This document shows, piece after piece, positions 2,873 to 19,724 of a stretch of DNA of 22,518 nt. Under the pieces are notes generated by a model. That model was not told the DNA's origin, made no database searches, and saw only the letters and a program-made list of their open reading frames with translations. Every line of letters starts with the position of its first letter. Within the stretch, counting starts at the first letter, position 1. The DNA comes from a virus: IMG/VR virus record IMGVR_UViG_3300034158_000123, positions 1 to 22,518 of that record; one strand, written 5' to 3'. The position numbers and the translations under genes were made by a program.

Positions 2873-2880
2873 ATAAATAC
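2873..2880 (-). promoter_or_regulatory. GTATTTAT intercistronic motif before tail fibre gene
   Basis: Exact GTATTTAT on the coding strand, 4 nt before the fibre ATG and directly after the TAG stop of the baseplate gene. This is the closest spacing of the set; the others mostly lie 12-17 nt from ATG. Confidence 0.5.
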
Positions 2881-4952
2881 TATAGTTCGGTTATTGGTTC
2901 AGTATCTTCAACCATTTCCGTTAATGTTATTTGGTGTTGGTTTCTGAGTATATCTGACTTAATACCAGTAATTAGAAATTTCTTTCCCGGTAATTGGTCA
3001 TAAGTCATATAGCCTAATAATTCAGGGGTTCTATTTATTGTTCCAGATAAGTTATATGTAAAGTCATTATAGTTACTTATCCAACTTCTTAGATATAATT
3101 TACTTAAATTGGCCGTTATACCTTGTCGGGTATGCGTACTTATATAGTCATAATTAGTACCTGCACTATAATATATTGCACCCCGTTCACCTACAACACG
3201 GTAAAAAGTATCCGACAATAATAATTTTTGTTGCGGTGCTTCATTCTCAAAGTCCGGGTTCATATATGCAGTTAATTGAATATCACTTTTTGTCTGGTTT
3301 TCACTGTATTTGTTATTCATCGACAACTCAATTTTTTTTATCCAAATGTCTTTAATGGCTTGTTTGTTATCAACAAAGTCATTTGCATAGGCTTCGTAAC
3401 TGTCCAATATTCTGATATTAAGTTTTCCATTTATTCCGTTATAGTCTGGCCAAGGGGTCATTAATTGTATATACCCATAGTCAAGCACTTCCATCACTGT
3501 ATCAATAATATCATTGTGTTTATTATATATCCATTGGTCATTGACAGGAATTACATACCCCTGATAAGGGTCTGACTTAAAATAATATGGAACTCTCAAA
3601 TATTGACCAGTACCACCCGTGTAAACATCCCAACGACCCGGACCAAAAGTGTTATTCTGAAAAATAAGGTCATTCATAAAAACCTGTATATGCAATTGAA
3701 CATTATAAAGGTCATGTACACCTGCAATTATGTTTTCAGGTGCTTGGTATGCATCTTTTGTTCTAAAATATACTTGTAAACCAAATTTTATATTAGTAAA
3801 ACTACGATACTGAGTAATAAAAAACGGAAATTCATAATTAAAGTCAAATGCAACACCTGCTGTTGAAGGGTTTTGTTTTATAAGTACAAATTCGCTTTTA
3901 GTACCGTTTTCCTGACCCATACCGTCAACCTCTGCCATTTTTGTAGTACCACTGTGGTTAACAACATAACTTTTATTATAATACTTATATCTGAATTTAT
4001 AATTACTATCTGTTCCAATATTTACAGTGCTGCCAGTTTCGTATATATCAACTGCACTTGGTTGGTAATTAAAAACAACATCTTGGTAATACGGACTGTA
4101 ATTTAATTTAACACTATTGTAACTACTAATTTGTTCTTTGTTCATATCGTTTTCACTATAGTCACTTATGTCACCATTGCTTAAATTAAGGTTTTCTTGA
4201 CCTAAATAACTATAGTCAGTTAGACTGTACTTTTTAAAAACTCCTGTATCTTGGAGTTCTGCAATATGGTCAGTAATTACTATAGTGTTTCCAACTTGTT
4301 TTATGTATGCTACATATCCTTTTAATAACATTTCAAGTGCATCGTAACTACTACATACCTCATTTTCTTCATCGTAAAAGGTATCTGAAATTAAATAACT
4401 ACCATGAAATAGGGTTTCTTCATCACTGGGAGTTATTTCGTTACATGTTGTAGTTAATTTAATATATAGATATTCCAGATATTCTAAATTAATTTTATTC
4501 AAGCAATATTGTAATATTTGCCATTTGGTTAATATCTGGCCTTTAATTTTCTGGCCTTGGTCATCTGTGAGTTTATAACGTTGCAATAAATTCAATGCAT
4601 TATTAAAATGAAATTCAATTGTATAAATGTTGTTTGACATTGTTGTATTGAATTGTTCAGTTTTTAAATAACCATCAAAAACAACATCTGCGTTACATTT
4701 AACAACAATTTTAAACCTCTGCATATTGGCAGTACGTAACCAGTCGTATTGGTCAGCATATTCACTTACAAGCGTTAAATTACAGTTAGCAACTCTAATT
4801 ACTTGAAATTTGGTTGCAATGTTGGGTCTGTCAATAAATAAACTATTAATTAAACAAGTGCTTGTAGAACCCGTGTACTGGTTATCATAGATATATACGC
4901 TGTATATGTCATTACTTAATTGTTGTATTGTGTCGCCTGTTAGTCTTAACAT
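2880..4952 (-). CDS. Putative baseplate / distal tail protein
   Basis: A 690-aa protein between the tape measure and the fibre, the place of distal-tail (Dit) or tail-associated (Tal) proteins in siphoviruses. The N-terminal 130 residues read as mixed beta structure with a segment like those of baseplate hub proteins (..MQRFKIVVKCNADVVFDGYLKTE), followed by long aromatic- and Asn-rich beta-type sequence. No signal peptide, membrane segment or enzymatic motif was recognised. Its ATG shares one base with the tape-measure stop (TAATG), so translation is probably coupled. It ends in TAG, one of the few non-TAA stops here. The function comes from gene order and composition rather than a specific signature, so a plain structural tail protein is the alternative. 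Confidence 0.6.
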   Translation of the reverse strand: MLRLTGDTIQQLSNDIYSVYIYDNQYTGSTSTCLINSLFIDRPNIATKFQVIRVANCNLTLVSEYADQYDWLRTANMQRFKIVVKCNADVVFDGYLKTEQFNTTMSNNIYTIEFHFNNALNLLQRYKLTDDQGQKIKGQILTKWQILQYCLNKINLEYLEYLYIKLTTTCNEITPSDEETLFHGSYLISDTFYDEENEVCSSYDALEMLLKGYVAYIKQVGNTIVITDHIAELQDTGVFKKYSLTDYSYLGQENLNLSNGDISDYSENDMNKEQISSYNSVKLNYSPYYQDVVFNYQPSAVDIYETGSTVNIGTDSNYKFRYKYYNKSYVVNHSGTTKMAEVDGMGQENGTKSEFVLIKQNPSTAGVAFDFNYEFPFFITQYRSFTNIKFGLQVYFRTKDAYQAPENIIAGVHDLYNVQLHIQVFMNDLIFQNNTFGPGRWDVYTGGTGQYLRVPYYFKSDPYQGYVIPVNDQWIYNKHNDIIDTVMEVLDYGYIQLMTPWPDYNGINGKLNIRILDSYEAYANDFVDNKQAIKDIWIKKIELSMNNKYSENQTKSDIQLTAYMNPDFENEAPQQKLLLSDTFYRVVGERGAIYYSAGTNYDYISTHTRQGITANLSKLYLRSWISNYNDFTYNLSGTINRTPELLGYMTYDQLPGKKFLITGIKSDILRNQHQITLTEMVEDTEPITEL

Positions 4953-6586
4953 TATATTGAATTTTTGCCTTTATTATAATTATTTAATACACCTACAAGG
5001 GTGTCACCTTCAATTCTGAAAGTAACTGCACTACCACCAAAACCACCTAAACCACCTAACATACTTCGGCTTTGTTGGTTTGAATATACTTGAGTGTTAG
5101 CAGGTAGTTTTACTATTTCCGGGCCTCTTTCACCTACCAATGCATAACCAGTATTCGGAACTATACCACCTGTGGCAAAACTACCAACTAAGGAATTAAA
5201 TGCGGTTTTTGCTAAACCACCTGCTGCTGCTGCCATTACAGGGGCAATGATATAACCAAAAGGTACTTTGGTTGACCAGTCTTTTAATGCACTTGCAACC
5301 ATTGTTGCAACTGCCTGACTTATTAAAGTGCCAATAATACCTTTAACTGCTTGTTTTAATTGCTGTCCGAACTTCTTAAAATTATCTGCACCCTGTCCCA
5401 AAACATCTGCCAATTTACCAAAACTGGTTTCCATTGCATTTGTAAGACTTTCTGCAAGACTTGGCATTTCTTCTGCCATTACTTTCATGCGTTCATGCAT
5501 AATGTCCAACATTTGCACACCCGTTGAAAGTGCAGGACTACTTTTAGGTAATTTACTAAAGTCCGGTTGTGGTAATGCTGCACCACTAACACCACCGTCT
5601 TTACTCTGCATTGTTTGCATTGGGTTTGCTTTCCAGTCTGCTTGCTGTTTTTCCCTCTGCACTTGTGCTTCTGCCTGTTCACTGAGTTTATTGGTTAATT
5701 TAATTGTTTCTTTCAATGACTGGTTGTACTGTGTACGCATTCCAATTAACTCTGCTTCTTTCTCGTTAACCTTTTGCCTGTTGTCTTGGTTGTCAGCACT
5801 AATTGACATTTCTTCCCTGAGTTGTTTTAACTCCAAGGCTTTCTGGTTATAATTCAATTCAAATAATGCTTTATTTGCCTGTTCTAATTGCTTAGTAAAG
5901 TCAAGTCTTTCAACACTGCTAAAATTTTCTTCGTCTCGTGCTTTGGCTTGTAGTTCAGATATTCTTTCCTCAATTTTGGCTTTTCTAAGTGCGTAGGTTT
6001 CGTTGAAGTCTTCTAATTTATCTTGTGTTTCATTAAGTTTCTTGGCATTTTCAATACCGTCCTTTATACTATCATTCCAACCTGTAAACGCTGCTTTAGC
6101 GTCTTCGGCTGCACCTTTAAAGTCACCTTTAAAAAGTTTTACTATTGCCGAACCAAGAAAAGTAATTTTCTCCAATACGGTATTAATAACGGCTTTGATA
6201 ATATCAAAAACTTTACGCATAGTGTCCGAACCTTCATCGGTTCTTTTCATCCAACCAATAAGACCAGCAATAGCAACAGAAATACCAAGAATAATTGCAC
6301 CAATTCCGGTTGCAATAAATGCTGTTTTCACGCTTCCAAAAGCAGGTATAAGTGCTGACATTGCTGACTTTATACCACCAAACACCCCATTTAATGCACC
6401 AAATTGCTGACCCAATTGGGGTAACGCTTGACTGGTAAGACTGGCAAAACTTGACTTAATTGCATTATTACCACCAACAATACTGTTTTGTAGGTTCTTT
6501 GCATCCTTGCTGAACTTTTGCGCTCCTGTTGTGAACCCTGCTGCATTAAGTCCAACTTTAACACCTACTGAAAAGTCTTTATTCAT
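4952..6586 (-). CDS. Tail tape measure protein
   Basis: A 544-aa protein setting tail length and threading the tail lumen. The N-terminus is Gly/Ala/Phe-rich, with a hydrophobic segment at residues 86-113 (AFIATGIGAIILGISVAIAGLIGW split over the core), typical of tape measures. A long charged helical, coiled-coil-like stretch follows (about 185-315). Near residues 470-495 is the widespread ATGGIVPN..VGERGPEIVKLP signature of tape-measure C-termini. At roughly 0.15 nm per residue this predicts a tail near 80 nm (inference). It follows the tail chaperone pair, as expected. A GTATTTAT motif lies 12 nt before ATG, and the stop overlaps the next ATG. No cysteines seen. Confidence 0.9.
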   Translation of the reverse strand: MNKDFSVGVKVGLNAAGFTTGAQKFSKDAKNLQNSIVGGNNAIKSSFASLTSQALPQLGQQFGALNGVFGGIKSAMSALIPAFGSVKTAFIATGIGAIILGISVAIAGLIGWMKRTDEGSDTMRKVFDIIKAVINTVLEKITFLGSAIVKLFKGDFKGAAEDAKAAFTGWNDSIKDGIENAKKLNETQDKLEDFNETYALRKAKIEERISELQAKARDEENFSSVERLDFTKQLEQANKALFELNYNQKALELKQLREEMSISADNQDNRQKVNEKEAELIGMRTQYNQSLKETIKLTNKLSEQAEAQVQREKQQADWKANPMQTMQSKDGGVSGAALPQPDFSKLPKSSPALSTGVQMLDIMHERMKVMAEEMPSLAESLTNAMETSFGKLADVLGQGADNFKKFGQQLKQAVKGIIGTLISQAVATMVASALKDWSTKVPFGYIIAPVMAAAAGGLAKTAFNSLVGSFATGGIVPNTGYALVGERGPEIVKLPANTQVYSNQQSRSMLGGLGGFGGSAVTFRIEGDTLVGVLNNYNKGKNSI

Positions 6587-6598
6587 TTTAATTTTATT

Positions 6599-6606
6599 AT
6601 AAATAC
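6599..6606 (-). promoter_or_regulatory. GTATTTAT motif before tape measure gene
   Basis: Exact octamer 12 nt before ATG, extended on the coding strand to GTATTTATAATAAAA and containing the palindrome TTTATAATAAA. It lies in the 21-bp gap after the chaperone stop. Confidence 0.55.
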
Positions 6607-6607
6607 T

Positions 6608-6844
6608 TTATTGGGGTTTTGCTTTTGGTATTACAATTGTTTTATTCATTCTCTTTTTATGCAATTCCAATACTTTCTGCTTATCTGCTTGTTTTTGTTC
6701 AGGGGTCAGGGTTGGGGTTTTGTTATCCCAAGGCAGTTTAACTTCACCCCCAAATGCTTTACATATTAACCGTGTCTGTTCCCAACGGTCTTTATAATTG
6801 TCTTCAATTGCCTTAAAAATTGCATCGGTTTCCCGTTCTGACAT
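6608..6844 (-). CDS. T-domain of tail assembly chaperone, probably reached by -1 frameshift
   Basis: A 78-codon frame from its first ATG, but the same frame is open without a stop back to the A-run at 6923-6931 in the upstream gene. A -1 slip there would give one fused protein of about 220 aa (7269 to 6608), the arrangement of lambda G and GT. The frame encodes residues such as ..YFLYEMSERETDAIFKAIEDN.. before and across the ATG, then WEQTRLICKAFGGE, a Trp/Arg-containing segment often seen in the T half of siphovirus tail chaperones. It contacts the tape measure during tail assembly in the cytoplasm (family knowledge). The ATG at 6844 has no good leader of its own, so independent translation seems less likely. 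The tape measure follows directly. Confidence 0.75.
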   Translation of the reverse strand: MSERETDAIFKAIEDNYKDRWEQTRLICKAFGGEVKLPWDNKTPTLTPEQKQADKQKVLELHKKRMNKTIVIPKAKPQ

Positions 6845-6912
6845 TTCATAAAGGAAATATTCAGTACTAATATTGGTGTTTGTGCTAATACTGGCAAAAA
6901 TGTCAAATATGC

Positions 6913-7269
6913 TTACTTCTGCTTTTTTTTTGCTGTGGGTGTTTGCGAAGTCTTTGTTTGCTGTGACATAAATTTATTAAATTGTGTAAGTTGAACAGTT
7001 TCAAACATATCTTTAACCTCACCTGAATTTATTTGTATTTCATTTTCTTTGTCCATTTCATCACAAAATTCATCAAATGACATAATAAATGTGTTTCTAT
7101 TTGCACCTTTTAGAAAAGAATAAAATAACATCATTGTATCTGTAAACCCTATTCCGTTTTCAAGTTCTGAAACGAACTTACCTGAAAGTGTTTCATATAT
7201 TATTATTCCTTTATTTGTTTTTCTTAATTCGTATTCTTTGTCTTGAATTTTAATTACTATGCTTTCCAT
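6913..7269 (-). CDS. Tail assembly chaperone (G-like)
   Basis: A 118-aa acidic protein lying between the major tail protein and the tape measure, the fixed location of tail chaperones. It begins with a beta-rich segment (..IVIKIQDKEYELRKTNKGIIIYE..) followed by helices, and ends in a Lys-rich tail encoded across nine consecutive A residues (A-K-K-K). This run is a likely -1 slippery site leading into the downstream T-domain, so most ribosomes would make this short form and a minority the long one. A GTATTTAT motif lies 15 nt before ATG, downstream of a strong terminator. Sequence similarity to named chaperones is weak by eye; the call rests on position, size and the frameshift layout. Confidence 0.75.
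   Translation of the reverse strand: MESIVIKIQDKEYELRKTNKGIIIYETLSGKFVSELENGIGFTDTMMLFYSFLKGANRNTFIMSFDEFCDEMDKENEIQINSGEVKDMFETVQLTQFNKFMSQQTKTSQTPTAKKKQK
6923..6931 (-). other. Putative -1 ribosomal frameshift slip site
   Basis: Nine A on the coding strand followed by G, in zero frame GCA AAA AAA AAG. It contains the A-AAA-AAG heptamer known from dnaX-type slippage. Zero frame stops at 6913-6915; the -1 frame continues GCA GAA GTA AGC and stays open to 6608. Confidence 0.75.
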
Positions 7270-7284
7270 AAATTATATTTTAAT

Positions 7285-7292
7285 ATAAATAC
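7285..7292 (-). promoter_or_regulatory. GTATTTAT motif before tail chaperone gene
   Basis: Exact octamer 15 nt before ATG, located between the terminator at 7315-7339 and the chaperone gene. If the terminator is efficient, this gene needs a new transcript start here. Confidence 0.55.
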
Positions 7293-7314
7293 AGACAAAA
7301 CATAAAAAGGAAAT

Positions 7315-7339
7315 AAAAAAAGCGGGTGTTTAACCCGCT
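7315..7339 (-). terminator. Rho-independent terminator after major tail protein
   Basis: A perfect 7-bp stem AGCGGGT/ACCCGCT with a 5-nt loop, followed on the minus strand by TTTTTTATTT. It lies about 53 bp after the tail-tube stop. Confidence 0.85.
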
Positions 7340-7392
7340 CTTTCAGAAAGTAAATAATAAATAAAATTAAAATAACAAAAAAAGAGAATGTC

Positions 7393-7824
7393 TTATTCGT
7401 TTAATGTCCAATTACCAACGCCCGTAAAGGTTACATTATAACCTACTGCACCGTCAATACCTGAAGTAATACCCAAGTCAGTAATTTTTGTCTGACCACT
7501 AATGTAAACACTTGCTGTATCTAATTCCTGTGGTAAGTCTTGACCGTCTGCAAGACCAAAACTAAAGTTTATGTTTGTTTGTTTTGCTTTGTACATTTTC
7601 AAAAGTCCAGTCATGTTAGTATAACCAGTTGTTACAAAGTCTACATCACCGTCAACAGTTAAATTCCATTCGTCATCACCTAAAAGAAAACTTTTACCAT
7701 TACGGTTTTTTAAGTCAATTTTTTCGGGTGTGGTTTTAAATGCAACTGTTTTGCTCCAACCAACAGGACTTGTAGTACCTGTACCTGCCCAAAATAAGAA
7801 GTCTTTACCAAGAATATTTGCCAT
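7393..7824 (-). CDS. Major tail (tube) protein
   Basis: A 143-aa protein of the size and beta-rich character of siphovirus tail-tube subunits (MANILGKDFLFWAG.. then ..WNLTVDGDVDFVTTGYTNM.. and a C-terminal ..GYNVTFTGVGNWTLN). It lies between the tail-terminator gene and the chaperone pair, the standard site for the tube protein. Many copies stack around the tape measure (family knowledge). It has its own GTATTTAT motif 38 nt upstream and a strong terminator downstream, making it a near-independent expression unit, in line with high-copy need. No cysteine seen. Confidence 0.8.
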   Translation of the reverse strand: MANILGKDFLFWAGTGTTSPVGWSKTVAFKTTPEKIDLKNRNGKSFLLGDDEWNLTVDGDVDFVTTGYTNMTGLLKMYKAKQTNINFSFGLADGQDLPQELDTASVYISGQTKITDLGITSGIDGAVGYNVTFTGVGNWTLNE

Positions 7825-7862
7825 TATGTATAATATTTTTAATTGTTTGCTATAATTTTTAT

Positions 7863-7870
7863 ATAAATAC
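7863..7870 (-). promoter_or_regulatory. GTATTTAT motif before major tail protein gene
   Basis: Exact octamer, 38 nt before ATG and so the most distant of the set. The gap between motif and start is A/T-rich. Confidence 0.5.
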
Positions 7871-7883
7871 TCGGTGTTGTTTT

Positions 7884-8258
7884 TTAATTCGTTTGGAATT
7901 CAAATATTAATGTTTGTACCCATACCTGCCCGTCTGTCTGTTCATCGTCTCCAACTATTCTACAACCTTTAACCAAGATATTATTATAACTACCTGTTTG
8001 GTTTTCAAATAGTGTTCTAATTATTTCAATGTAAAATAGGCTTTCATCATAAGTGCTACCCATTACATCAATTCTAACAGTGCTGCTATTATAAACAACA
8101 CCATTGCGGTTATATTCGGGTCTCTCTGCTGTTCGTTTATAAACAACATAGGGTAATTGTGCATTAACTGCAAGCAATGCATTAAAACTTGTTATACCAG
8201 TTAAGGCAGTACAACCACTGAGTTTATAATAAGTGTATTTGTTTATACTGAGTGCCAT
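7884..8258 (-). CDS. Tail terminator / completion protein (DUF3168-like)
   Basis: A 124-aa protein between an HK97 gp10-like protein and the tube protein, where the tail-terminator (lambda U-like) protein is normally encoded. The core ..LPYVVYKRTAERPEYNRNG.. followed by ..VRIDVMGSTYDESLFYIEII.. matches the general look of DUF3168 tail-completion proteins (a Pro-Tyr-Val-Val-Tyr strand, then a strand-helix with Y/D residues). Its start lies 2 nt from the upstream stop, so it is translationally coupled. The role, capping the tail tube at the head end, follows from family and position. Confidence 0.7.
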   Translation of the reverse strand: MALSINKYTYYKLSGCTALTGITSFNALLAVNAQLPYVVYKRTAERPEYNRNGVVYNSSTVRIDVMGSTYDESLFYIEIIRTLFENQTGSYNNILVKGCRIVGDDEQTDGQVWVQTLIFEFQTN

Positions 8259-8260
8259 AT

Positions 8261-8707
8261 TTAATATTTTTTATTGTATTTGTCAATTACTTTATTTAAA
8301 GCGTCTTCCATTGTCTTTACTATTCCATTATAAATAAGGTCTTCAGTTGCTTCAACTGCTCTGCTAAACCATTTATTACCCGTCACCCTACCTGTTGGGT
8401 GAACCTTACCTTTTTTACTAATGTATTGTCTATCCTGCGTTCCCTCTTCCTGTATATGTCCCAAATAGCCTTTATAAGGTCTAAACTTTCTTGCTCCAAC
8501 AGTTGCAATACCTGCACCTTTACTGACCTTAACACCTACAGACTTTTTTAAATTCTCTCCTACTGCATTGTCTTTTGCTGCTTCAATTAAAGGTTTACTG
8601 GCTTCATTAAAACCTGTTCGCATAACATCTTTTTGCAACCTGCTGTCATACTCATTTAGTGCCTTTGTGAATTCCTCTAACCCTTCCATTTTAAAATTAT
8701 ATTCCAT
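8261..8707 (-). CDS. HK97 gp10-like head-tail / tail-completion protein
   Basis: A 148-aa basic protein. It opens with an amphipathic helix (MEGLEEFTKALNEYDSRL..), followed by ..EASKPLIEAAKDNAV.. and a glycine-containing ..GHIQEEGTQ.. segment. The end ..WFSRAVEATEDLI.. is characteristic of the HK97 gp10 family. The family acts at the head-tail joint or in tail completion. It lies between the head-closure and tail-terminator genes, with gaps of 5 and 2 nt, so the block from 9358 to 7884 reads as one coupled set. Confidence 0.8.
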   Translation of the reverse strand: MEYNFKMEGLEEFTKALNEYDSRLQKDVMRTGFNEASKPLIEAAKDNAVGENLKKSVGVKVSKGAGIATVGARKFRPYKGYLGHIQEEGTQDRQYISKKGKVHPTGRVTGNKWFSRAVEATEDLIYNGIVKTMEDALNKVIDKYNKKY

Positions 8708-8712
8708 TGGTA

Positions 8713-9030
8713 TTACTGTTTTAATTCGGCTGTAATTATTAAACTGTCTTTGTAACCAACCTCTTTTATATTGTCGATACCATACAATTTATTACCAAAC
8801 CTAATTTCAAAATATTCATTAATATCCTGTCTGTATTGTATTTGAAATTGTATAATAGTACTTACAAATAATTCATAATTCTGTATTGCCTTATTACCAC
8901 CAATATACTGAACTGCTGCGGGTACTGTTGCAAAGTCCGTATAGGTTTGGTTACCACCTGAACCCGTTTCGCTTGCTGCATCTTGGGGTTGTCTCAATGT
9001 TATAATATGTCTAAGTAGTCCTGCACGCAT
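8713..9030 (-). CDS. Head-tail adaptor / head closure protein
   Basis: A 105-aa protein beginning MRAGLLRHIITLRQPQDA, the typical opening of phage head-tail joining proteins (SPP1 gp16-like), with later strands ..YELFVSTIIQFQIQYR.. and ..YGIDNIKEVGYKDSLIITAEL.., also standard for this family. It closes the portal channel after packaging (family knowledge). It sits directly after the gp6-like connector, 1 nt after its stop, and ahead of the gp10-like gene. Confidence 0.85.
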   Translation of the reverse strand: MRAGLLRHIITLRQPQDAASETGSGGNQTYTDFATVPAAVQYIGGNKAIQNYELFVSTIIQFQIQYRQDINEYFEIRFGNKLYGIDNIKEVGYKDSLIITAELKQ

Positions 9031-9031
9031 T

Positions 9032-9358: not shown

Positions 9359-9372
9359 GTTTATGTTTTATC

Positions 9373-9380
9373 ATAAATAC
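9373..9380 (-). promoter_or_regulatory. GTATTTAT motif before connector gene
   Basis: Exact octamer 14 nt before ATG, with the palindrome TTTATGATAAA. It lies immediately downstream of the capsid terminator's T-tract. Confidence 0.55.
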
Positions 9381-9391
9381 TGTAAAAAGAA

Positions 9392-9428
9392 AAAAGGGGT
9401 GTTTTGCTGTGAAACAAACACCCCTTTT
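9392..9428 (-). terminator. Rho-independent terminator after major capsid gene
   Basis: A 13-bp perfect stem (AAAAGGGGTGTTT with its complement) and an 11-nt loop, followed on the minus strand by TTTTTTCTTTTTACA counting the stem end. It lies about 22 bp after the capsid stop and is the strongest hairpin in the window. Confidence 0.9.
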
Positions 9429-9449
9429 AAGATATTGAATATTGAATTT

Positions 9450-10769
9450 TTAAAGAATTGCTGCTTTTGTAAAACTTTCGTTTCTCAAAATACCCATGTT
9501 GTGAGCAATATTGATATGTAAACGAACAGTGTTTAAGTGAGCCTGTGTATATGGGTCAACCATAATTGAAACAGCACCAAGACTGTCAGGGGTTGCACCA
9601 AAAAATGCTTGTACTAAATTAGACCAGTCTGCGAATGCGGCACCATAATAGCCAGTACCACCAGTTCCACCAGTAACCTGAAGGTCAGAAGGCATTGTAG
9701 TTGTAGTATAATACGGAAAACCTGCAACATCATTACCATTTAAAATTGGGGTTGTAGCACTTGCAAAAGCAGGTGTTTGGCGAAGTTGATACACTGTATA
9801 AGGGTTAAAAATGAAACCCAATGAACCTTCTAAAGCGTCTTGTGCGTCTACTGCTGCTATCATTTTGAATATTGCATCTGCTGAAGTTGCACCAATGTAA
9901 GCATAAGGAACACCAGTTAAACCACCAAATAAAGACTTTGGTTTATAAGCAACACTTGCAAGGTGTTTACCAAAGAAAGCAGAAACAATTGCTTTATTAA
10001 TACCATTAACAATTGAATTTCTAATTATAGTTTCATTGCTGCTGTTTTCCTGAACTAAAAGAGTTTTTGAAATATCAACATGACCACGAATATACATAGG
10101 GGTAAGCGATAAAGCGACACTATTAGTAGGTGTTTTGTCAGTACTTGCAGTGTTTTCACCGTCAACATAGTCGAATGCAATTGCTGACTGTGCAGGGTAT
10201 GACAAATTTGAAGTTGCAAAAACTGCCTGTGAACCTGCTAAAAGTAATGGGTTTTTAGCGTAAAGCGGACCTAACAAGTCCATTACATTAGTCTGTACAC
10301 TTGCATTACTTGCTGCTGCAAGAATAGCACGTTTTTCTGCCATTGAAGCACCAAAAAGGTCTGCGTACATTCTGTTCTCAGATAAAGGAATTGTTATTTG
10401 TCCTTTGGCAGTAAGTCCATTCATTTGAAATGCATTGTTACCAATTTTCATTAGTCTGGTTTCTGCATCTGTGAAGGGTTGTTGGTTAACAACAGCGTTT
10501 AACGCTCTGAAGAAACTGAATTTTTTTTCTGGGGTATTCATATTGTAGTTTATATTTTTTTCTTTGAAAGTTTCAACATTTCTTTTGTCGGCTTCCTGAA
10601 TTTCTTTTATTTTTTCTTCGTTTAATGCAATAGTTACTTTGTGTTTTACTACTTCGTCTTCTTCTATTTGGGTAAGGCTGCGGTTTTCTGCTTTACCTTT
10701 GTTTACAATGGCTTCCAATGCATCTACTGCAATTTGTTTTTTATTTTGTAATTCAATTAAATTTTCCAT
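9450..10769 (-). CDS. Major capsid protein, HK97 fold
   Basis: A 439-aa protein of the Phage_capsid family. The first ~100 residues are charged and helical (..NKKQIAVDALEAIVNKGKAE..), fitting a scaffolding delta domain removed by the protease encoded just upstream. The remainder is Ala/Asn/Gly-rich with the usual HK97 features: ..FFRALNAVV.. near the domain junction and a C-terminal segment with ..YYGAAFADWSNLVQAFF... There is an internal Met at MNTPEKKFSFF, but the first ATG keeps the delta domain and follows the GTATTTAT motif by 17 nt. A strong terminator follows. Confidence 0.92.
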   Translation of the reverse strand: MENLIELQNKKQIAVDALEAIVNKGKAENRSLTQIEEDEVVKHKVTIALNEEKIKEIQEADKRNVETFKEKNINYNMNTPEKKFSFFRALNAVVNQQPFTDAETRLMKIGNNAFQMNGLTAKGQITIPLSENRMYADLFGASMAEKRAILAAASNASVQTNVMDLLGPLYAKNPLLLAGSQAVFATSNLSYPAQSAIAFDYVDGENTASTDKTPTNSVALSLTPMYIRGHVDISKTLLVQENSSNETIIRNSIVNGINKAIVSAFFGKHLASVAYKPKSLFGGLTGVPYAYIGATSADAIFKMIAAVDAQDALEGSLGFIFNPYTVYQLRQTPAFASATTPILNGNDVAGFPYYTTTTMPSDLQVTGGTGGTGYYGAAFADWSNLVQAFFGATPDSLGAVSIMVDPYTQAHLNTVRLHINIAHNMGILRNESFTKAAIL

Positions 10770-10786
10770 GCTTATTAAATTTTATA

Positions 10787-10794
10787 ATAAATAC
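10787..10794 (-). promoter_or_regulatory. GTATTTAT motif before capsid gene
   Basis: Exact octamer 17 nt before ATG, with the palindrome TTTATTATAAA. It starts 5 nt after the protease TAA stop. Confidence 0.55.
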
Positions 10795-10799
10795 TGTTG

Positions 10800-11444
10800 T
10801 TATTTTTTGCTTTTAATATAATTATCGTATATGCTGTAATATTTTCTAAGTTCTTCTTTGTGCTTTAGTTCTTCTACATGCTTTTGTATTTCCTGTTGTT
10901 CGTGTTGCTGCAATTCTTCCAGACCCCTTGTACTTACATCAGTTGCTTGGTATGCAGGGTTTATTACTATACTAAAGTCAAATATTGAACTGAATTTCTT
11001 AATTGTTCTTAAATATGTACCATCACTGCGTTTTTCCCATACATCATTGCCTTTGTTCGGTTCTAATGTGAAACCAAATGACATATATTGCAGGTCACCT
11101 GCACGAATCGCACTAAGAATTTCATCACTGAAAGCACTATTTTTCCTTGCTTTAAAACTAAATTCAATACCCCTTTCAGTTTTCCAAACCTTTAATGTAC
11201 TTGTTGGGTTTGCTTGTCTCCACCTTGCAAGCGGTATTGTGCTTGTATCGTGGTTGTATAACATAGTTATATCTGAATTACTTAATAATTCATCTGTTAC
11301 GGCTTCTGGTTTTATAATTTCTCTAAACTGACCACCTAGTAACTGACTTTCTGAATTAAAAACAATTGGTGTACCTGTTATAATTCTTTCGTCTTCACCT
11401 TCACCTGCACGGAGTTCGCAATTTATATACCTTAATTCTTTCAT
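10800..11444 (-). CDS. Prohead maturation protease (S78 family)
   Basis: A 214-aa HK97-type prohead protease that cleaves the capsid delta domain and itself during head maturation. The N-terminus (..GEDERIITGTPIVFNSES..) and ..FREIIKPEAV.. are typical. The catalytic residues appear to be H65 in YNHD and S122 in YMSFGF, the conserved placement of this family, with an acidic residue completing the triad. The C-terminal 40 residues are Gln/Glu/Lys-rich and probably helical. It lies between portal and capsid genes, with GTATTTAT 12 nt before ATG. Confidence 0.92.
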   Translation of the reverse strand: MKELRYINCELRAGEGEDERIITGTPIVFNSESQLLGGQFREIIKPEAVTDELLSNSDITMLYNHDTSTIPLARWRQANPTSTLKVWKTERGIEFSFKARKNSAFSDEILSAIRAGDLQYMSFGFTLEPNKGNDVWEKRSDGTYLRTIKKFSSIFDFSIVINPAYQATDVSTRGLEELQQHEQQEIQKHVEELKHKEELRKYYSIYDNYIKSKK

Positions 11445-11456
11445 ACTATGTTTATA

Positions 11457-11464
11457 ATAAATAC
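11457..11464 (-). promoter_or_regulatory. GTATTTAT motif before protease gene
   Basis: Exact octamer 12 nt before ATG, with the palindrome TTTATTATAAA. It lies just after the portal TAA stop. Confidence 0.55.
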
Positions 11465-11469
11465 TTAAA

Positions 11470-12744
11470 TTATTTTTTCAAATTATTGTCAACCTTGTCA
11501 CCAACAACAACGGGGTTTTTTAATGACTGCTGTTGAACAGTTGTTTTATAGTCGTCACCACCTTCAGCAAAATTTGTGTTTGGAAAATTCTTTGCTGCTT
11601 CGTTTCTGTTCCAAATACCGTTGTTAATACCAGTTGTATAATAATTCATTTGTGCAACACTGTCCATACGGATAAGGTCAGTTAAGTCCCAAGCCAATAT
11701 TAATTTTTGTCTGTCCTTTGGTAGTACTAATTTTCTGTAACACTCATTCTGTATTTTTTGCAGTATGGGTTGTAATGTTGTGTTTAAATATTCTATCTGC
11801 ATTGCTTCAACTGTTCCAGACAATTGTTTTGAATTGTCGAATAACAGTGCAGGACTAATATTAAACCAACGACTAATTTCAGTTATCGACCATTGACGGC
11901 TTTCCAAGAACTGCCCGTCTTTTGGACTAATACCAAGGGTTTTTAAGTCCATACCACCGCCAATAATTGGCGGGTCTTTCTGTCCAGTTGTTGGGTTAAA
12001 TGTATTTCTTAGGTCCTGGCGTAGGTCTGTTTTTTGTGTTGGGGTTGGTTGACCCTCTGTTTTAATATACAATAAAGAACTGCTGCCATTTAATGAATAG
12101 TCATTTGCTTGCTGTTCTATGTTGTATACACCACCTAATGAATTACGAGCGTATTGTAATACACTTATACCTTGTTCGTAGTCATCGGGGTCAGGGTAAT
12201 TGATAAAATGCAGTATATCCGTGTCATCAATTAAGTGTTGATACCCTGTAACCTTCCATTTCTTTTGTCCATTAACATTACCTTTTGCAACTGTGTTTGG
12301 TGGTAATAACCTGAATTCAATAGGGTTTCCGTTAGGGTCTCTGACAATAAGTATGTAAGCATTACCCGAAGTGAGCAAATTGCACCCTGCAACCTTCCAC
12401 ATATTAAATTTGCTCATGTTCCAATTTGGTTGGAGTGTTAAGAGGTCATATAAATTATTATGTAATTCTCTTTTAAACCCCTGTTCATCGACTTGGTATA
12501 ACTTTAGGTCTAATGTTGCAAGACTGTCGGAAATTTTATTTATTGCGCAATAAACCGCACTTAGTGTAAGTGTTTTATTTATTTCAAAAGTGCTTTTATA
12601 TGGTACACCAAAAATACTTTGTAAAGTATTAAGGGGTAATGTTGTCCATATATCTCGTTTTTCAAGGTCTATTAGTTTGTTTCCTTGTTCTAATATTTTG
12701 TCTTCTAAGGCTTTAACCTTTTTTGTGTTTCCGAAAATAGCCAT
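11470..12744 (-). CDS. Portal protein, HK97 family
   Basis: A 424-aa portal protein that forms the dodecameric DNA channel at the capsid vertex. Typical segments are ..TLSAVYCAINKISDSLATLDLKLYQ.. near the N-terminus, ..LTSGNAYILIVRDPNGNPIEFRLLPP.., ..DILHFINYPDPDDYEQGISVLQYAR.. and ..ITEISRWFNISPALLFD... I chose the ATG at 12744 (MAIFGNTKKV..). The frame opens at a GTG five codons earlier, but that GTG overlaps the region just after GTATTTAT, while the ATG lies 15 nt from the motif like its neighbours. It lies between TerL and protease in canonical order. Confidence 0.92.
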   Translation of the reverse strand: MAIFGNTKKVKALEDKILEQGNKLIDLEKRDIWTTLPLNTLQSIFGVPYKSTFEINKTLTLSAVYCAINKISDSLATLDLKLYQVDEQGFKRELHNNLYDLLTLQPNWNMSKFNMWKVAGCNLLTSGNAYILIVRDPNGNPIEFRLLPPNTVAKGNVNGQKKWKVTGYQHLIDDTDILHFINYPDPDDYEQGISVLQYARNSLGGVYNIEQQANDYSLNGSSSLLYIKTEGQPTPTQKTDLRQDLRNTFNPTTGQKDPPIIGGGMDLKTLGISPKDGQFLESRQWSITEISRWFNISPALLFDNSKQLSGTVEAMQIEYLNTTLQPILQKIQNECYRKLVLPKDRQKLILAWDLTDLIRMDSVAQMNYYTTGINNGIWNRNEAAKNFPNTNFAEGGDDYKTTVQQQSLKNPVVVGDKVDNNLKK

Positions 12745-12759
12745 AATTAAGTATTTCAC

Positions 12760-12767
12760 ATAAATAC
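12760..12767 (-). promoter_or_regulatory. GTATTTAT motif before portal gene
   Basis: Exact octamer 15 nt before the chosen ATG at 12744, used here to prefer that start over the upstream GTG. Confidence 0.5.
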
Positions 12768-12799
12768 TTAATGTTTTATTTCGTGTAAAGTGTTGGTTG

Positions 12800-14422
12800 T
12801 TAACCTATTCTATAACTGTATTTCTTCATTGACATCCAACAATTTAAAGCAGTGAGAATGCTAATTGCACCGTCAATTTTATTACTGCTCTTGGCTTTAT
12901 CGGGTTTCTTGTTACCATTTGCATCGTTACGCAGAACGCAATTAGAGAAGCACCAACGAGTTATTTTATTATTGTCTAATTCTACCTGACCACCTAATAA
13001 CAAACGCTCAAATTCAAGTGTTCCTGCACTGAATTTACCAACGGTCTGCGGTACTTCTTGCACATTAAAACCTCTGGTCTTCATGTCTTCTGTGAATGTC
13101 TTGGCCTTCCAAGCATCGTAACCAATGTTCAAAATATTTATTTTATACTGTTGTGCTGTGGCTTGTATGTCCGTTGCTATTGCTTCATAGTCTACACGGT
13201 TACCCGCTTGAAGTGTTATAAACCCTTGTTTATGCCAGTTCTCATAGGTTTTTTTGTCAATAGTACTGTTCATATTATCAACCGGAAGGTAATATTTGGT
13301 TATATAATGGTAGTTTCCATCTGCTTCAAACTGCCATGAAACGGCTGTAAGGTCTGAAACCTCTGACAAGTCAACACCTAACACGCAGTCAAAGCCTTCA
13401 TAATAACCAAAATTCAGGTCTTTGGAGTTGTTTAGAATGATGTTTGCAGGTATCCAAGTCGTTACAGTATCACACCAAACATTAAAATTCTTGGTCTTTA
13501 TATCATTTTCAACACTCTTGTTATTCTTACCCCGTGTTACTTCGTCTTCTAAATTCTTATATAAAACCGTATGGGTTAACGAAGGGTTACTGTATATCCA
13601 GTTGTCGGGGTTAGTCCAGTCCTGCTGCTGTTCTTCATCTAATTCAAAAATTAATGCATAAAAACTTTCATCGGTTTTCAGACCTGCATTAATTTCTTTA
13701 GCAGTGGTGTATAATTCGTATGCAGGGTAATTTTTATTAAGACCTGCGGTCATTGTGGTAATGAAAAGTTTTTCTTGTAAGTCTACTTGTGAACTTTTGA
13801 GGTTATTATATAAGTCCCAATTGCGGAATTCTTCGAATTCATCCATATAAACCACCTTCAAACCCAAACCGTCTTTACTTTTATTCTCACTGCTAATGCA
13901 TTTTATTACTGAATTGGCGTAATGTATGGTGTTATGTTTGCGGTTTAAGTACTGTTCTTCGGGGTCTAAGTTTATACAGAAATTATTTACTGCATCAAAG
14001 TCAATATCTTGTGCCTGTTCTCTTGAATTACTTACCATTACCAAACGGTTACCACTACCTTCAAATAATGTACAGTATAGCATCAAACCCGCTGCCAGTG
14101 CAGTCTTGCCGTTCTTCTTAGAAATGAATAATAGTATTTCTGTGAACCTGCGGACATTTGTTTCTTTCCACTGCCAACCAAAAATATTTGCAATAAAGAG
14201 TTTCTGCCAAGGTAATAATACAAAGTTCTTACCTGCATACCTGTCCTTGGTGTGTTGAAGGTGTGAAAAAAACCTAAACACATGCAGTACTTTGGCTTCA
14301 TTAAAATACAATTGGGGGTTGTTTTGGTCTTTCTCAAACCTCTTTACATTGTCTTGAAGTGCTTTGCAAGCCTTTATTTTACCAGTTTTAATGTCATTTA
14401 TATATGTCCAGACCTCTTGCAT
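12800..14422 (-). CDS. terL: Terminase large subunit
   Basis: A 540-aa packaging motor and nuclease of the Terminase_1 type. The ATPase part has a Walker-A-like SKKNGKT at residues 101-107, after the conserved LLPWQKLF at about 69-76, and a Walker B VVYMDE at 190-195 with catalytic Glu. The nuclease part has the RNase-H-like acidic residues D351 (VLGVDLSEVSD), D436 (NIGYDAWK) and D517 (KIDGAISIL). Its ATG overlaps the TerS stop (TAATG), so translation is coupled. The cleavage mode (cos or pac) cannot be read from the sequence, though the HNH gene nearby favours cos. Confidence 0.95.
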   Translation of the reverse strand: MQEVWTYINDIKTGKIKACKALQDNVKRFEKDQNNPQLYFNEAKVLHVFRFFSHLQHTKDRYAGKNFVLLPWQKLFIANIFGWQWKETNVRRFTEILLFISKKNGKTALAAGLMLYCTLFEGSGNRLVMVSNSREQAQDIDFDAVNNFCINLDPEEQYLNRKHNTIHYANSVIKCISSENKSKDGLGLKVVYMDEFEEFRNWDLYNNLKSSQVDLQEKLFITTMTAGLNKNYPAYELYTTAKEINAGLKTDESFYALIFELDEEQQQDWTNPDNWIYSNPSLTHTVLYKNLEDEVTRGKNNKSVENDIKTKNFNVWCDTVTTWIPANIILNNSKDLNFGYYEGFDCVLGVDLSEVSDLTAVSWQFEADGNYHYITKYYLPVDNMNSTIDKKTYENWHKQGFITLQAGNRVDYEAIATDIQATAQQYKINILNIGYDAWKAKTFTEDMKTRGFNVQEVPQTVGKFSAGTLEFERLLLGGQVELDNNKITRWCFSNCVLRNDANGNKKPDKAKSSNKIDGAISILTALNCWMSMKKYSYRIG

Positions 14423-14778
14423 TATAATAATTCATCCATCATTTTACTAAACTTTGAGTTATTTTTTTTCTTGGTGGTTGTCTTCTGTGCTTGTCTGGCC
14501 TTGGGGTTTAAATAAAACCCGTCCAATAATTTGAACATATCTTTTTTCAGGTCTTGCATTACATAAGTCCAAGGGTTTGTTTTATACTGCGGGTTTTCAT
14601 TATAGTCCAATAACTGCAACACTGCACCCATTTCCTTAACTTTCTTGCTGGCTTCCAAATACTGTTCGTATGTATTACCAAGCAATTGCAATGCAATTTC
14701 GTCCCGTTCTTTGTACAGGTTTTCCGTTTTTAGATATTCTCTAAGGCCATCAATTAATATTTTAGTTGTGCGTTTCAT
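14422..14778 (-). CDS. terS: Terminase small subunit (P27-like)
   Basis: A 118-aa protein directly before TerL. The helical core ..DEIALQLLGNTYEQYLEASKKVKEMG.. and the C-terminal ..GFYLNPKARQAQ.. fit P27-family (Terminase_4) small terminases, followed by a Lys-rich tail that may bind DNA. It recognises the packaging site and feeds DNA to TerL. The start overlaps the end of the upstream gene by 17 bp, and a near-match CTATTTAT lies 9 nt before ATG, inside that gene. Confidence 0.85.
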   Translation of the reverse strand: MKRTTKILIDGLREYLKTENLYKERDEIALQLLGNTYEQYLEASKKVKEMGAVLQLLDYNENPQYKTNPWTYVMQDLKKDMFKLLDGFYLNPKARQAQKTTTKKKNNSKFSKMMDELL

Positions 14779-15106
14779 ATTTCATAAATAAATAGTCTTT
14801 GCAAACAGTGTTGGTAAATATTGAAATGTCAACACTGTTTGTGTAGTTCTTATTTTTCTTAACATTCTGCATTAATTTTCTTATTGCCTGTAATAACTGC
14901 GGACTGAACTGCATTTCAATTGTTACTTTTCGCTCGTGTTCCAGACCCCAAGAAAATTTGTTACCGTCCTTTATACCTTCAATGTTACAGAACTTTTGTA
15001 TTGTTGCTCTATGCAGGTTTAATGCAGTTCCTGCAATTTTTATATTATCAAAAACCCTGACTTCATTGGTCAGGGTGTTGGTTGTTATTACTTGTCTTTC
15101 GTTCAT
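14762..15106 (-). CDS. NUMOD1-like small DNA-binding protein
   Basis: A 114-aa protein. Residues 8-50 (..TNEVRVFDNIKIAGTALNLHRATIQKFC..) resemble the NUMOD1 DNA-binding module of homing endonucleases: a V-F-D strand, then a helix-turn-helix with A-x-x-L and R-x-T-I. No nuclease motif follows. The second half contains ..FSPQLLQAIRKLMQN.., a possible oligomerising helix. Lying directly upstream of TerS and overlapping it by 17 bp, it could be a packaging-site accessory protein, a regulator, or a remnant of a homing endonuclease. NUMOD1 resemblance is by eye. Confidence 0.55.
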   Translation of the reverse strand: MNERQVITTNTLTNEVRVFDNIKIAGTALNLHRATIQKFCNIEGIKDGNKFSWGLEHERKVTIEMQFSPQLLQAIRKLMQNVKKNKNYTNSVDISIFTNTVCKDYLFMKYETHN

Positions 15107-15235
15107 TTTATAATTTATTATAAAATATTATTATTTGCATTTGGGAATTTGAGTTTTGAAAATTTGATATTTGTGCGAGTCTTGTTTGACGGGTGGTTTC
15201 CCGTCCTTAGTGAATTTTCTGACCCTATCCCCCCT
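15107..15235. other. Non-coding gap before terminase genes; candidate cos / TerS-binding region
   Basis: A gap of about 129 bp containing five copies of ATTTG on the plus strand (15133, 15139, 15147, 15162, 15169), plus a TTTTG at 15154, spaced 6-8 bp. It also has a perfect 6-bp inverted repeat GACGGG/CCCGTC at 15188-15205 and an isolated G-rich patch (GGGGGGATAGGG on the minus strand, near 15224-15235) in otherwise AT-rich DNA. Position next to TerS with an HNH gene upstream suits a cos site with repeat binding sites (inference). The hairpin could instead be a weak terminator. Confidence 0.4.
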
Positions 15236-15460
15236 TTATTTCTTTCTTCCAAATAGTTTTCTAAATATGTTGCTATCTTTTTTCACCCAACTATCTAAAC
15301 CATGTTCAGGAATTAATTTACTGTTATTAATAAATATTATCTTATTATAAAATTCAACTACTGCCTTACTATTCTTTACTGCTTGTTCAATATTGTAAAC
15401 AGTATTGCGTCTGTCTATCATTGCTTGCTGCTGTTCGGGTGTTAATTGTTGGTCTTTCAT
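15236..15460 (-). CDS. Small hypothetical protein
   Basis: A 74-aa protein of unknown function. It opens with a Gln-rich helix (..LTPEQQQAMIDRR..) and ends in a basic motif (..NIFRKLFGRKK) that might bind nucleic acid. It starts 1 nt after the stop of the preceding 67-aa gene, so the two are probably co-translated. I recognise no family. Confidence 0.6.
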   Translation of the reverse strand: MKDQQLTPEQQQAMIDRRNTVYNIEQAVKNSKAVVEFYNKIIFINNSKLIPEHGLDSWVKKDSNIFRKLFGRKK

Positions 15461-15461
15461 T

Positions 15462-15665
15462 TTATTCTGTTGTTTTAATAAAAATAAGAGGTTGTATTCT
15501 CTTATTTATATATTCAATTATTTTTGTTCTAAATACCTGACTTTGTTTAATTCTGCTGTTGTCAGGACTGTCGGGAAACTCATGCAATAACTCCTGCATT
15601 CTATCAATTTCAAATTGCAGTAGTGCAAGTAATTCATTTATATTACTGGTTGGGGTTAGGTTCAT
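15462..15665 (-). CDS. Small hypothetical protein
   Basis: A 67-aa, mostly helical protein of unknown function (..NELLALLQFEIDRMQELLHEF.. then ..KIIEYINKRIQPL..). It lies between the HNH gene and the 74-aa gene, with GTATTTAT 14 nt before ATG, which supports it as a true gene and the start of a short group. No motif was recognised. Confidence 0.65.
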   Translation of the reverse strand: MNLTPTSNINELLALLQFEIDRMQELLHEFPDSPDNSRIKQSQVFRTKIIEYINKRIQPLIFIKTTE

Positions 15666-15679
15666 AATTATTATTTCTC

Positions 15680-15687
15680 ATAAATAC
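15680..15687 (-). promoter_or_regulatory. GTATTTAT motif before 67-aa gene
   Basis: Exact octamer 14 nt before ATG. An 11-bp element TGGTCGTTTTT lies just upstream (15699-15709) and recurs at the next motif copy (16887-16897). Confidence 0.5.
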
Positions 15688-15710
15688 GAATGAGTTTTAA
15701 AAACGACCAA

Positions 15711-15980
15711 TTACCAGAATTCAGGGGGTATTGTAAACTTTCCGTGTTCGAATAAATGGCAGTCCGTGCATAGGCTTTCCATATTCTCAATGTCAAGTGC
15801 TAATTGTATTCTTTCGTTTTCGTCCTGACCTGACATAATATTTATTTTATGGTGTACTTCTGCAACTGGCTTTACAACACCTGTTTTAATACACCTTTCA
15901 CATATTGGTGACAACTTTACCTTTAATGCACGGACTTTCCGATATTTATTATAATATTTACTGTCTATATTATTTTTCAT
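15711..15980 (-). CDS. HNH endonuclease
   Basis: An 89-aa single-domain HNH nuclease with a structural zinc site. It has C27-x2-C30, the EVHH pair (H43/H44), N66 in the beta-beta-alpha part, and C71-x2-C74-H75 plus H79. Small HNH proteins next to terminase genes are often needed for cos cleavage together with TerL (established for several cos phages). I start it at the ATG at 15980; the frame extends to 16004 but without a better start. Its first 11 bases overlap the end of the GIY-YIG gene, so it may be coupled to it. Confidence 0.85.
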   Translation of the reverse strand: MKNNIDSKYYNKYRKVRALKVKLSPICERCIKTGVVKPVAEVHHKINIMSGQDENERIQLALDIENMESLCTDCHLFEHGKFTIPPEFW

Positions 15981-16398
15981 TTTTTTTTGCTCTCCATACA
16001 GCACTCATTTTTGCTTTACTTTCAGCAGTATGTTTATGTCCTAACCATATATTATTACGTTTATGTGCAGCACTCATTTTAGTACGTGTTTCATTACTAA
16101 CTTTTAAACCTAAGTTTGTTTTACTTGGTATTATATGTGTATTCCAACAAGGTCTGGTAACATATATTACAAATTCTTCACGCAATAATAATTCTGTATC
16201 ACCTTTCATAACCTCAGTAAAAACCAAGTCTTGTTTACCGTACTTATTATAATGGTTTTGCATAAATTTTGAATGATGCTTACCTTTTCTTAACAACCTT
16301 AAATGTTCTTGCCATCTTTCATTAATATTTACCGAACTACCAATATAAAAGCGTTCGGGGTGTGTTTTAGACTGTATTTTATAAATTGCTGTCATCAT
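15970..16398 (-). CDS. GIY-YIG homing-type endonuclease with NUMOD3 repeats
   Basis: A 142-aa nuclease. The GIY-YIG core is seen as IYKI (Y6) and FYIGSS (Y18), with R28 in ..NERWQEHL.., a Glu at about 75 and N86. The C-terminal third has two NUMOD3-like segments (..NETRTKMSAAHKRNN.. and ..TAESKAKMSAVWRAK), DNA-binding modules typical of phage homing endonucleases. The frame opens at TTG 16401, but ATG 16398 or 16395 is the probable start. It is free-standing between small genes and overlaps the HNH gene by 11 bp. It probably acts as a selfish mobile nuclease, but could have a role in packaging. Confidence 0.85.
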   Translation of the reverse strand: MMTAIYKIQSKTHPERFYIGSSVNINERWQEHLRLLRKGKHHSKFMQNHYNKYGKQDLVFTEVMKGDTELLLREEFVIYVTRPCWNTHIIPSKTNLGLKVSNETRTKMSAAHKRNNIWLGHKHTAESKAKMSAVWRAKKNEK

Positions 16399-16406
16399 CA
16401 ATATTT

Positions 16407-16652
16407 TTATAACTCATTTGGCGTTAATAATACCCTGCTGTTATTCTTTTCATAGGTGTTTATGTAGTACAGGTAAATATATTCCAGTAATTCTTGGAGT
16501 GTTATTTCTTCTGTTTCTGCAATTGCTATGAGTTTGTTATAAAGGTTATATTCAATGCTTATTTTCTTCTCTATAGTTTCACCACTATAATTGTCATATA
16601 GACAAAACAACTGGTCTAATAGAACTATTTGCATTATTTGAGTGTCTTTCAT
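16407..16652 (-). CDS. Small hypothetical protein
   Basis: An 81-aa acidic protein of unknown function. The second half is a probable helical pair with a run of Tyr/Leu (..LQELLEYIYLYYINTYEK..). The middle (..IEKKISIEYNLYNKLIAIAETEE..) hints at a short ribbon-helix-helix-like fold, but this is not secure. It starts 1 nt after the 69-aa gene stop and lies 8 nt before the GIY-YIG gene. Confidence 0.6.
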   Translation of the reverse strand: MKDTQIMQIVLLDQLFCLYDNYSGETIEKKISIEYNLYNKLIAIAETEEITLQELLEYIYLYYINTYEKNNSRVLLTPNEL

Positions 16653-16653
16653 G

Positions 16654-16863
16654 TTATTCTGGTAGATAATAATAACTTGCTATTATATATCCATTGGTTG
16701 TATTGATAACCAAATACAGGTGGTCAGGTGTTCTGAAAATAAATTCACCTTGGCATGTGTAATACTGTCCATTGATATTTGCAATTAACTTTCTTAATGC
16801 ATCGTAAGCACCCATTTTTGTTTGGTAATATGCTGGTTCTTCAACTATTTTTTTCTTTGCCAT
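16654..16863 (-). CDS. Small hypothetical protein
   Basis: A 69-aa protein with a basic start (MAKKK), a short helix (..YDALRKLIANI..) and then Tyr-rich beta hairpins (..QYYTCQGEFIFRTPDHLYLVI..), resembling a small single-domain beta-rich fold. No family was recognised. GTATTTAT lies 14 nt before ATG, and the gene begins a block after the nuclease gene. Confidence 0.6.
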   Translation of the reverse strand: MAKKKIVEEPAYYQTKMGAYDALRKLIANINGQYYTCQGEFIFRTPDHLYLVINTTNGYIIASYYYLPE

Positions 16864-16877
16864 AATTAAGGTTTATT

Positions 16878-16885
16878 ATAAATAC
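16878..16885 (-). promoter_or_regulatory. GTATTTAT motif before 69-aa gene
   Basis: Exact octamer 14 nt before ATG, with palindrome TTTATAATAAA. It is the most promoter-distal (rightmost) intergenic copy. TGGTCGTTTTT lies directly upstream (16887-16897). Confidence 0.55.
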
Positions 16886-19570: not shown

Positions 19571-19724
19571 AGTTGTAAATTTTTAATTAATATTATTTTC
19601 TAATAAATATTCAAAATATTCAAAACGGCCATTGGTGAATATCAACTACATAGCGTTTTTAATAGGGCAAATTCTTCCCATTGGCTTGTAAAGCACACTA
19701 CTATGTTATTAATACAACTAATGT
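19571..19724. other. Intergenic gap with little structure
   Basis: 154 bp, AT-rich, between two small genes. CATTGG occurs twice (near 19630 and 19679), but I see no convincing promoter, terminator or gene. Confidence 0.3.

Follow-up and report, generated by a model that had tools for sequence, protein, structure and literature searches.

Gene content of the window

The window, an entire IMG/VR virus record of 22,518 bases, has both its ends at gene boundaries, like trimmed proviruses, such that outlying genes may be missing. Its genes lie on the minus strand. An integrase gene comes first, then a few early genes, among them those for a SprT-like protein and a replication-initiator-like protein; behind these lie the genes for terminase, portal, protease, capsid, connectors, tail protein and tape measure, with two large tail genes last. 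The window is apparently a prophage, and relatives (Flavobacterium, Cellulophaga and Bacteroides phages) point to Bacteroidota as the host phylum, both for it and for the motif-bearing contigs described below; among 50,697 annotated phage records there is no close relative (best terminase identity ~33%).

A repeated octamer before gapped late genes

The octamer GTATTTAT and the features that accompany it are given here with their counterparts in two related siphophages, L007 and L312. Scores derive from a matrix for which L007 and immuto alone supplied the sites (immuto being an isolated T4-like Flavobacterium phage).

21619..21626, minus strand: octamer copy within the integrase gene, probably there by chance
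19603..19610, minus strand: ATATTTAT form (ATATTTATTAGAAAA copy), 32 nt upstream of a 66-aa early gene that starts at 19570; score 16.2
16878..16885, minus strand: motif, exact copy, ahead of the 69-aa first late gene (start at 16863), whose L007 ortholog also has one
near 16872, minus strand: predicted transcription start for the 16878 motif
15680..15687, minus strand: motif, exact copy, before a 67-aa gene (starts 15665), ATG 14 nt on
14788..14795, minus strand: CTATTTAT near-match before TerS, a doubtful motif site; score 8.6; inside the preceding gene, overlapping the junction
12760..12767, minus strand: motif before the portal gene (starts 12744); L007 counterpart at 8245
11457..11464, minus strand: motif before the head maturation protease gene; L007 counterpart at 9517
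10787..10794, minus strand: motif before the major capsid gene; L007 counterpart at 10165
9392..9428, minus strand: terminator-like hairpin and T run 3′ of the capsid gene, adjoining the next motif; inverted repeat AAAAGGGGTGTTT...AAACACCCCTTTTTT
9373..9380, minus strand: motif before the head–tail connector gene (starts 9358); counterparts at 11468 in L007 and 766 in L312
7863..7870, minus strand: motif 38 nt before the major tail protein gene; counterparts at 12951 in L007 and 2682 in L312
7316..7344, minus strand: intrinsic terminator (12 pairs, T tail) 3′ of the major tail protein gene, adjoining the next motif
7285..7292, minus strand: motif before a 118-aa tail assembly gene (starts 7269); L007 counterpart at 13499
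6599..6606, minus strand: motif before the tape measure gene; counterparts at 14101 in L007 and 4461 in L312
2873..2880, minus strand: motif before a 955-aa gene, ATG 4 nt on

The ten intergenic minus-strand copies reported by an earlier, sequence-only reading of the window are all exact and, as it said, the only further copy on the coding strand is the one in the integrase gene; the plus strand holds one additional copy (21071–21078). Both strands together thus contain 12 copies against 2.95 expected, and comparison with shuffled sequence, which that reading had proposed, left the excess standing (0 of 100 dinucleotide shuffles of the window got to 12). Placement is similarly marked: GTATTTAT is the most frequent 8-mer at ≤46 nt from 30 starts (found at 10 of them), and 10 of the 11 coding-strand copies fall within the 5.9% of the strand that lies just upstream of starts (P = 5.5e-12). 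A control with the 167 other anagrams gave at most four starts for any one of them. The octamer observation is correct and is not chance.

Distances from motif to ATG are also as first described, running from the 16878 copy down to the 2873 copy at 14, 14, 15, 12, 17, 14, 38, 15, 12 and 4 nt. Late starts with a gap of at least 11 nt bear the motif in 10 of 11 cases; late genes with smaller gaps or overlaps, from which it had been said to be missing, bear it in 1 of 10 (Fisher p = 3e-4), the single case being the doubtful form at TerS. The start at 6844, which has no motif, belongs to a probable −1 frameshift pair as its second half (an A-run slip site is present in both the window and L007) and is therefore not an independent gene. 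Among the gapped early genes of the window, one in five carries the motif.

The copy before that early gene (19610–19603), overlooked by the sequence-only reading, scores like the other window copies on the matrix from other phages.

Conservation in related siphophages

L007, the nearest relative of the window, is syntenic with it and has a terminase 65% identical. The L007 stretch analysed contains nine copies of GTATTTAT where 0.5 would be expected, and every one is on the coding strand; the check for conservation in related phages came out positive, in that eight of these precede orthologs of motif-bearing window genes (first late gene, portal, protease, major capsid, connector, major tail, tail assembly and tape measure). 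The block common to the two phages begins at the first late gene, the one preceded by the 16878 motif, and between their early modules no common protein was detected. A third siphophage, L312 (a fragment whose tape measure is 35% identical), carries seven copies on a single strand against 0.6 expected; these include one following the terminator of the capsid gene and one each ahead of the tail protein and tape measure genes. Portal and protease profile searches for more relatives returned only L007 again and one 30%-identical locus.

The comparison defines the conserved core as TATTTAT, rarely preceded by T and followed ~5 nt further on by A-A; the sequence 3′ of it in L007 is usually AAGAAAA or ATAAAAA. 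The extension TTTATNATAAA is present in five of the ten window copies, as first noted, but L007 reveals it to be no conserved feature. The palindrome placed in the title of the sequence-only reading is likewise incidental, being not conserved in L007, so neither a palindrome nor an RNA hairpin is the unit that functions.

Both terminator junctions recur. At 9392..9428 (a hairpin read by eye, its loop exceeding the limit of our terminator scan) L007 has a similar hairpin and L312 a T-rich terminator; the L007 terminator at 13448–13473 lies at the junction matching 7316..7344. In the window and L007, a terminator, a motif and a gene thus follow one another closely behind both the capsid gene and the tail protein gene, which leaves little space for another promoter.

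Occurrence beyond the siphophage group

A scan of viral contigs with an extended form of the motif matched many unrelated phages, and several matched contigs hold extra same-strand copies outside the selection criterion. Some of the motif contigs span 200–350 kb, with T4-like genes at loci among them (T4-group terminase, tail sheath, SbcC-like). In immuto, TATTTAT, whose 5′ neighbour is often A or C, precedes late genes that include those for terminase, portal, sheath and tube. Counted over whole records, TATTTATNNKAAA and its reversed control occur at 10:3 in the window, 7:1 in L007, 10:2 in immuto and, for example, 43:9 in large contigs (contigs were drawn using the motif itself and the large ones partly chosen for high counts; isolates were not so chosen). 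The motif is not limited to the siphophage group of the window.

There is no motif enrichment in the ten other Bacteroidota phage isolates phi12:1, phiST, 19:3, 14:2, 3:1, 6H, pT24, P12002L, P12024S and crAss001, T4 has zero matches to TATTTATNNKAAA, and the start-associated pattern was not found in phi39:1, BS-TP3 or MT835917. A host-wide promoter word was considered and rejected, 395 Bacteroidota genomes giving 165 matches versus 133 for the reversed control with a maximum of 4 per genome; clear motif excess is absent from these chromosomes, and a prophage in genome G366, which carries relatives of the portal, TerL and MCP and a gp55-like frame, has no excess of the motif either. The literature that we covered, incompletely, on the octamer, on Bacteroidetes late promoters with gp55 and on Bacteroides and crAss-like phage promoters does not describe the element, although an earlier description may exist.

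Promoter-like flanks and spacing

We aligned 282 non-redundant gene-preceding copies, in comparison with 847 other TATTTAT occurrences from the same contigs, setting the first T at −12. The gene-preceding copies display T-rich blocks at −29 to −24 and −20 to −17 (centres near −27 and −19) with a trough between; T occupies −13 in 4%, versus 34% of controls, with G preferred; and A is strong at −1 and +1, including in copies taken without selection for A. The T-block signal arises mainly from T-run sites, such that terminator tails may contribute to it, and it is a property of the pooled copies, the window and L007 together supplying only 19. The distance from motif to ATG is bimodal, at 4–6 nt (peak 5) and 12–18 nt (peak 15), and a distance of 5 puts the AUG exactly on the predicted +1; the 2873 copy would be of this leaderless type if the start-site prediction is correct. 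Terminators lie directly upstream of 20 of 130 motif genes versus 12 of 530 others (p = 6e-8, gap length uncontrolled), an excess in the same direction in the window, L007 and immuto.

A gp55-like sigma as candidate reader

The gp55 family phrog_234 matches proteins of four motif-rich metagenomic records (G397, G398, G399 and G400) and, weakly, one of immuto (E 0.008). The candidate sigma of immuto is its gp118 (YP_010114565.1). A family model made from three of those proteins gives strong matches in G397, G402, G405, G407, G408 and G409 (E 1e-19 to 1e-38), such that 9 of 13 motif-rich metagenomic records have gp55-like sigma genes. Three of the four records without one are fragments of <36 kb; the fourth, G403, encodes a protein with sigma-70 region 2 whose size is ECF-like. 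The best Protein Data Bank match of the sigma family is T4 gp55 (7d7c, E 0.07), and three of eight family members match phrog_234; weak-to-moderate scores together with the region 2 pattern thus suggest gp55 homology. Among the Bacteroidota chromosomes, 1 of 395 has a gp55-like sigma.

The window and L007 yield no gp55-type sigma with phrog_234, phrog_12791, Pfam Sigma70_r2 or the family-specific profile, and a gp55 hidden in the window was rejected after no match to these four models or in an all-frames search. The siphophages would thus appear to share the promoter class without a visible reader. With the early modules unrelated and the motif kept, we infer that the reader should be encoded by the late block common to the two phages, by the host or by another phage. 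It is possible, and we advance it tentatively, that small siphophages, apparently of Bacteroidota, use the late-promoter class of T4-like phages without gp55, via a new specificity factor; no firmer is the accompanying suggestion that this factor may be one of the small proteins encoded in that late block, or may come from the host or from a co-infecting T4-like phage. Two small shared proteins considered as the factor gave weak AlphaFold models (114 aa, pLDDT 58; 81 aa, pLDDT 66).

A probable late promoter and its alternatives

The motif is probably a late promoter (we put this at roughly 0.8). The sequence-only reading had entertained a promoter, a regulator site and a translation signal with a lean to the first, and that lean is well supported by the orthologous junctions, terminators, T blocks, start-site A and ATG distances. 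The motif itself, its conservation and position, the composition of its flanks and the gp55-like genes of other carriers are direct observations; from them we infer the promoter role, the start sites, late timing and recognition by gp55-like sigmas, the label “late” resting on gene content.

TATTTAT would form the core (−12 to −6) element. RNA polymerase with a dedicated specificity factor would bind it (with G or A, rarely T, at −13) along with T-rich DNA near −19 and −27, and transcription would begin at an A about six bases downstream of the motif, yielding a transcript, leaderless or with a ~10-nt leader, for every virion gene or small group of genes that overlap. Within the late region, terminators would end one transcript and the following motif restart transcription. 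In the large T4-like carriers the factor would most likely be their own gp55-type late sigma.

Several points count against the late-promoter reading. The gp55 searches found no sigma in the window or L007, T-run sites carry most of the T-block signal, and the motif itself was used to draw the contigs; one A-form copy also stands before an early gene, and a lambda-like late region does not usually have a promoter for every gene.

An mRNA-leader signal for translation initiation, substituting for a ribosome-binding site at genes without translational coupling, is unlikely. It would account for a motif found at gapped genes and missing from overlapping junctions, mostly 12–17 nt from the ATG, in a phylum where Shine–Dalgarno sites are missing (PMC6847099); however, it predicts a fixed spacing, where the observed distances run from 4 to 38 nt and are bimodal, and no conserved upstream DNA, where T blocks are in fact conserved 5–17 nt upstream of the motif. 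The gapped early genes (one of five with the motif) and the lack of clear enrichment in Bacteroidota chromosomes also speak against it, and in F. johnsoniae it is A at −3, −6, −12 and −13 that favours translation, not a TATTTAT word (PMC6847099).

Less probable still is an operator for a phage repressor or activator repeated along the genome, comparable with mycobacteriophage stoperators. The motif is indeed repeated, asymmetric, intergenic and in a single orientation, but the identical word occurs in unrelated lytic T4-like phages, at set distances from starts rather than scattered genome-wide and with flanks that resemble a promoter, and no common regulator was found between the early modules of the window and L007. 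A chance or base-composition artefact, suggested by the AT-richness of both motif and gaps, is refuted by the shuffles, the anagram control, the strand bias and conservation at orthologous junctions across phages whose proteins are 35–65% identical.

Read as a late promoter, the motif provides a testable rule by which many uncultured phages could be searched for their late genes and start sites, and would tie these phages to a divergent gp55-like sigma family, in a phylum whose phage promoters have been little described so far. It also poses a sharp question, that of one promoter class in unrelated phages with a reader visible in only some. A strong, short phage promoter would serve a phylum in which E. 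coli promoters fail.

Comparison with known promoter and start-associated elements

T4 late promoters carry TATAAATA at −13 to −6 (PMC1524935). They are served by the sigma gp55 with gp33 and the clamp gp45. Like them, the motif is a short AT word, highly conserved and placed at roughly −12 to −6, with a clear −35 word absent; each late gene or small cluster has one, often with terminators near; it lies before structural genes (10 of the 11 gapped late starts); and most of the large phages that bear it encode gp55-like sigmas. Unlike them, it reads TATTTAT(A), not TATAAATA or the close CTAAATA (in a compatible position), has T-rich blocks upstream, and is used by siphophages, the window and L007 being without gp55. 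The motif most likely works like a T4 late promoter, albeit one that differs in sequence and whose window lineage gives no match in the gp55 searches.

In Flavobacterium promoters, the element TAHHTTTG occupies −12 to −5, and AT-rich blocks lie at −18 and −28 (PMC6847099). The Bacteroidota housekeeping (sigma-ABfr) promoter also has a weak TTTG at −33. Our motif shares its register, the TAnnT beginning and the AT-rich blocks near −18 and −28, but has A and not T at −7 (invariably, since the core is so defined) and A or another base, rarely G, at −5, whereas T at −7 and G at −5 are nearly invariant in the sigma-ABfr element.

Cluster K mycobacteriophages have start-associated sequences, GGGATAGGAGCCC, mostly outside the structural module (PMC12699233). 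These too are short conserved motifs directly before many phage start codons; their sequence is different, and the motif described here marks the structural module and has promoter anatomy.

The gp55-like sigma gene and its neighbours

In the large T4-like phage records (L282, L285, L286 and L289-L294) a glycosyltransferase-like gene lies upstream of the gp55-like sigma gene in most cases and, downstream, there is a conserved gene for a protein of 116-130 aa, either adjacent or separated by one or two genes. By analogy with T4, where gp33 works with the late sigma gp55, this small protein is a candidate gp33-like coactivator. Two of the phages carry ~35-40 extra residues in the middle of sigma region 2, with the frame intact:

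L293 1471-2340, minus strand: gp55-like sigma gene with region 2 insertion
L294 1471-2346, minus strand: gp55-like sigma gene with region 2 insertion

Motif-rich record G403 and a prophage in genome G366

The strongest motif excess (24:1, motif to reversed control) was that of G403, an 83-kb metagenomic record whose genes include transposase and helicase genes, together with an ECF-like sigma; G403 may be a plasmid or another mobile element rather than a phage.

L300-L303, and L309 1195-1764 (minus strand): loci of G403

Genome G366 holds the following prophage:

L318-L319, about 1,384,000-1,404,000 of G366: prophage with relatives of the window's portal, terminase and capsid

This prophage contains a gp55-like reading frame, and AGAGAG-type sites are numerous upstream of its starts, which would be unusual if the host is truly a member of the Bacteroidota.

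Further features of the window

The window and its closest relative, the siphophage L007, each have two overlapping reading frames in the interval that separates the tail protein gene from the tape measure gene. The frames, which in both phages have an A-run slip site, AAAAAAAAAG, resemble a -1 frameshift pair for tail assembly.

Window 6608-7269, minus strand: overlapping frames
L007 13513-14093: counterpart overlapping frames
Window 15711-16398, minus strand: GIY-YIG-like frame overlapping the HNH gene, late block
Window 21613-21626, minus strand: perfect extended motif, GTATTTATAATAAAA, within the integrase gene

The GIY-YIG-like frame, which L007 lacks, is possibly a homing endonuclease insertion. 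An in-frame TTG lies 9 nt downstream of the integrase-gene motif, near the beginning of the catalytic domain, and this copy could represent either a chance occurrence or an internal start.
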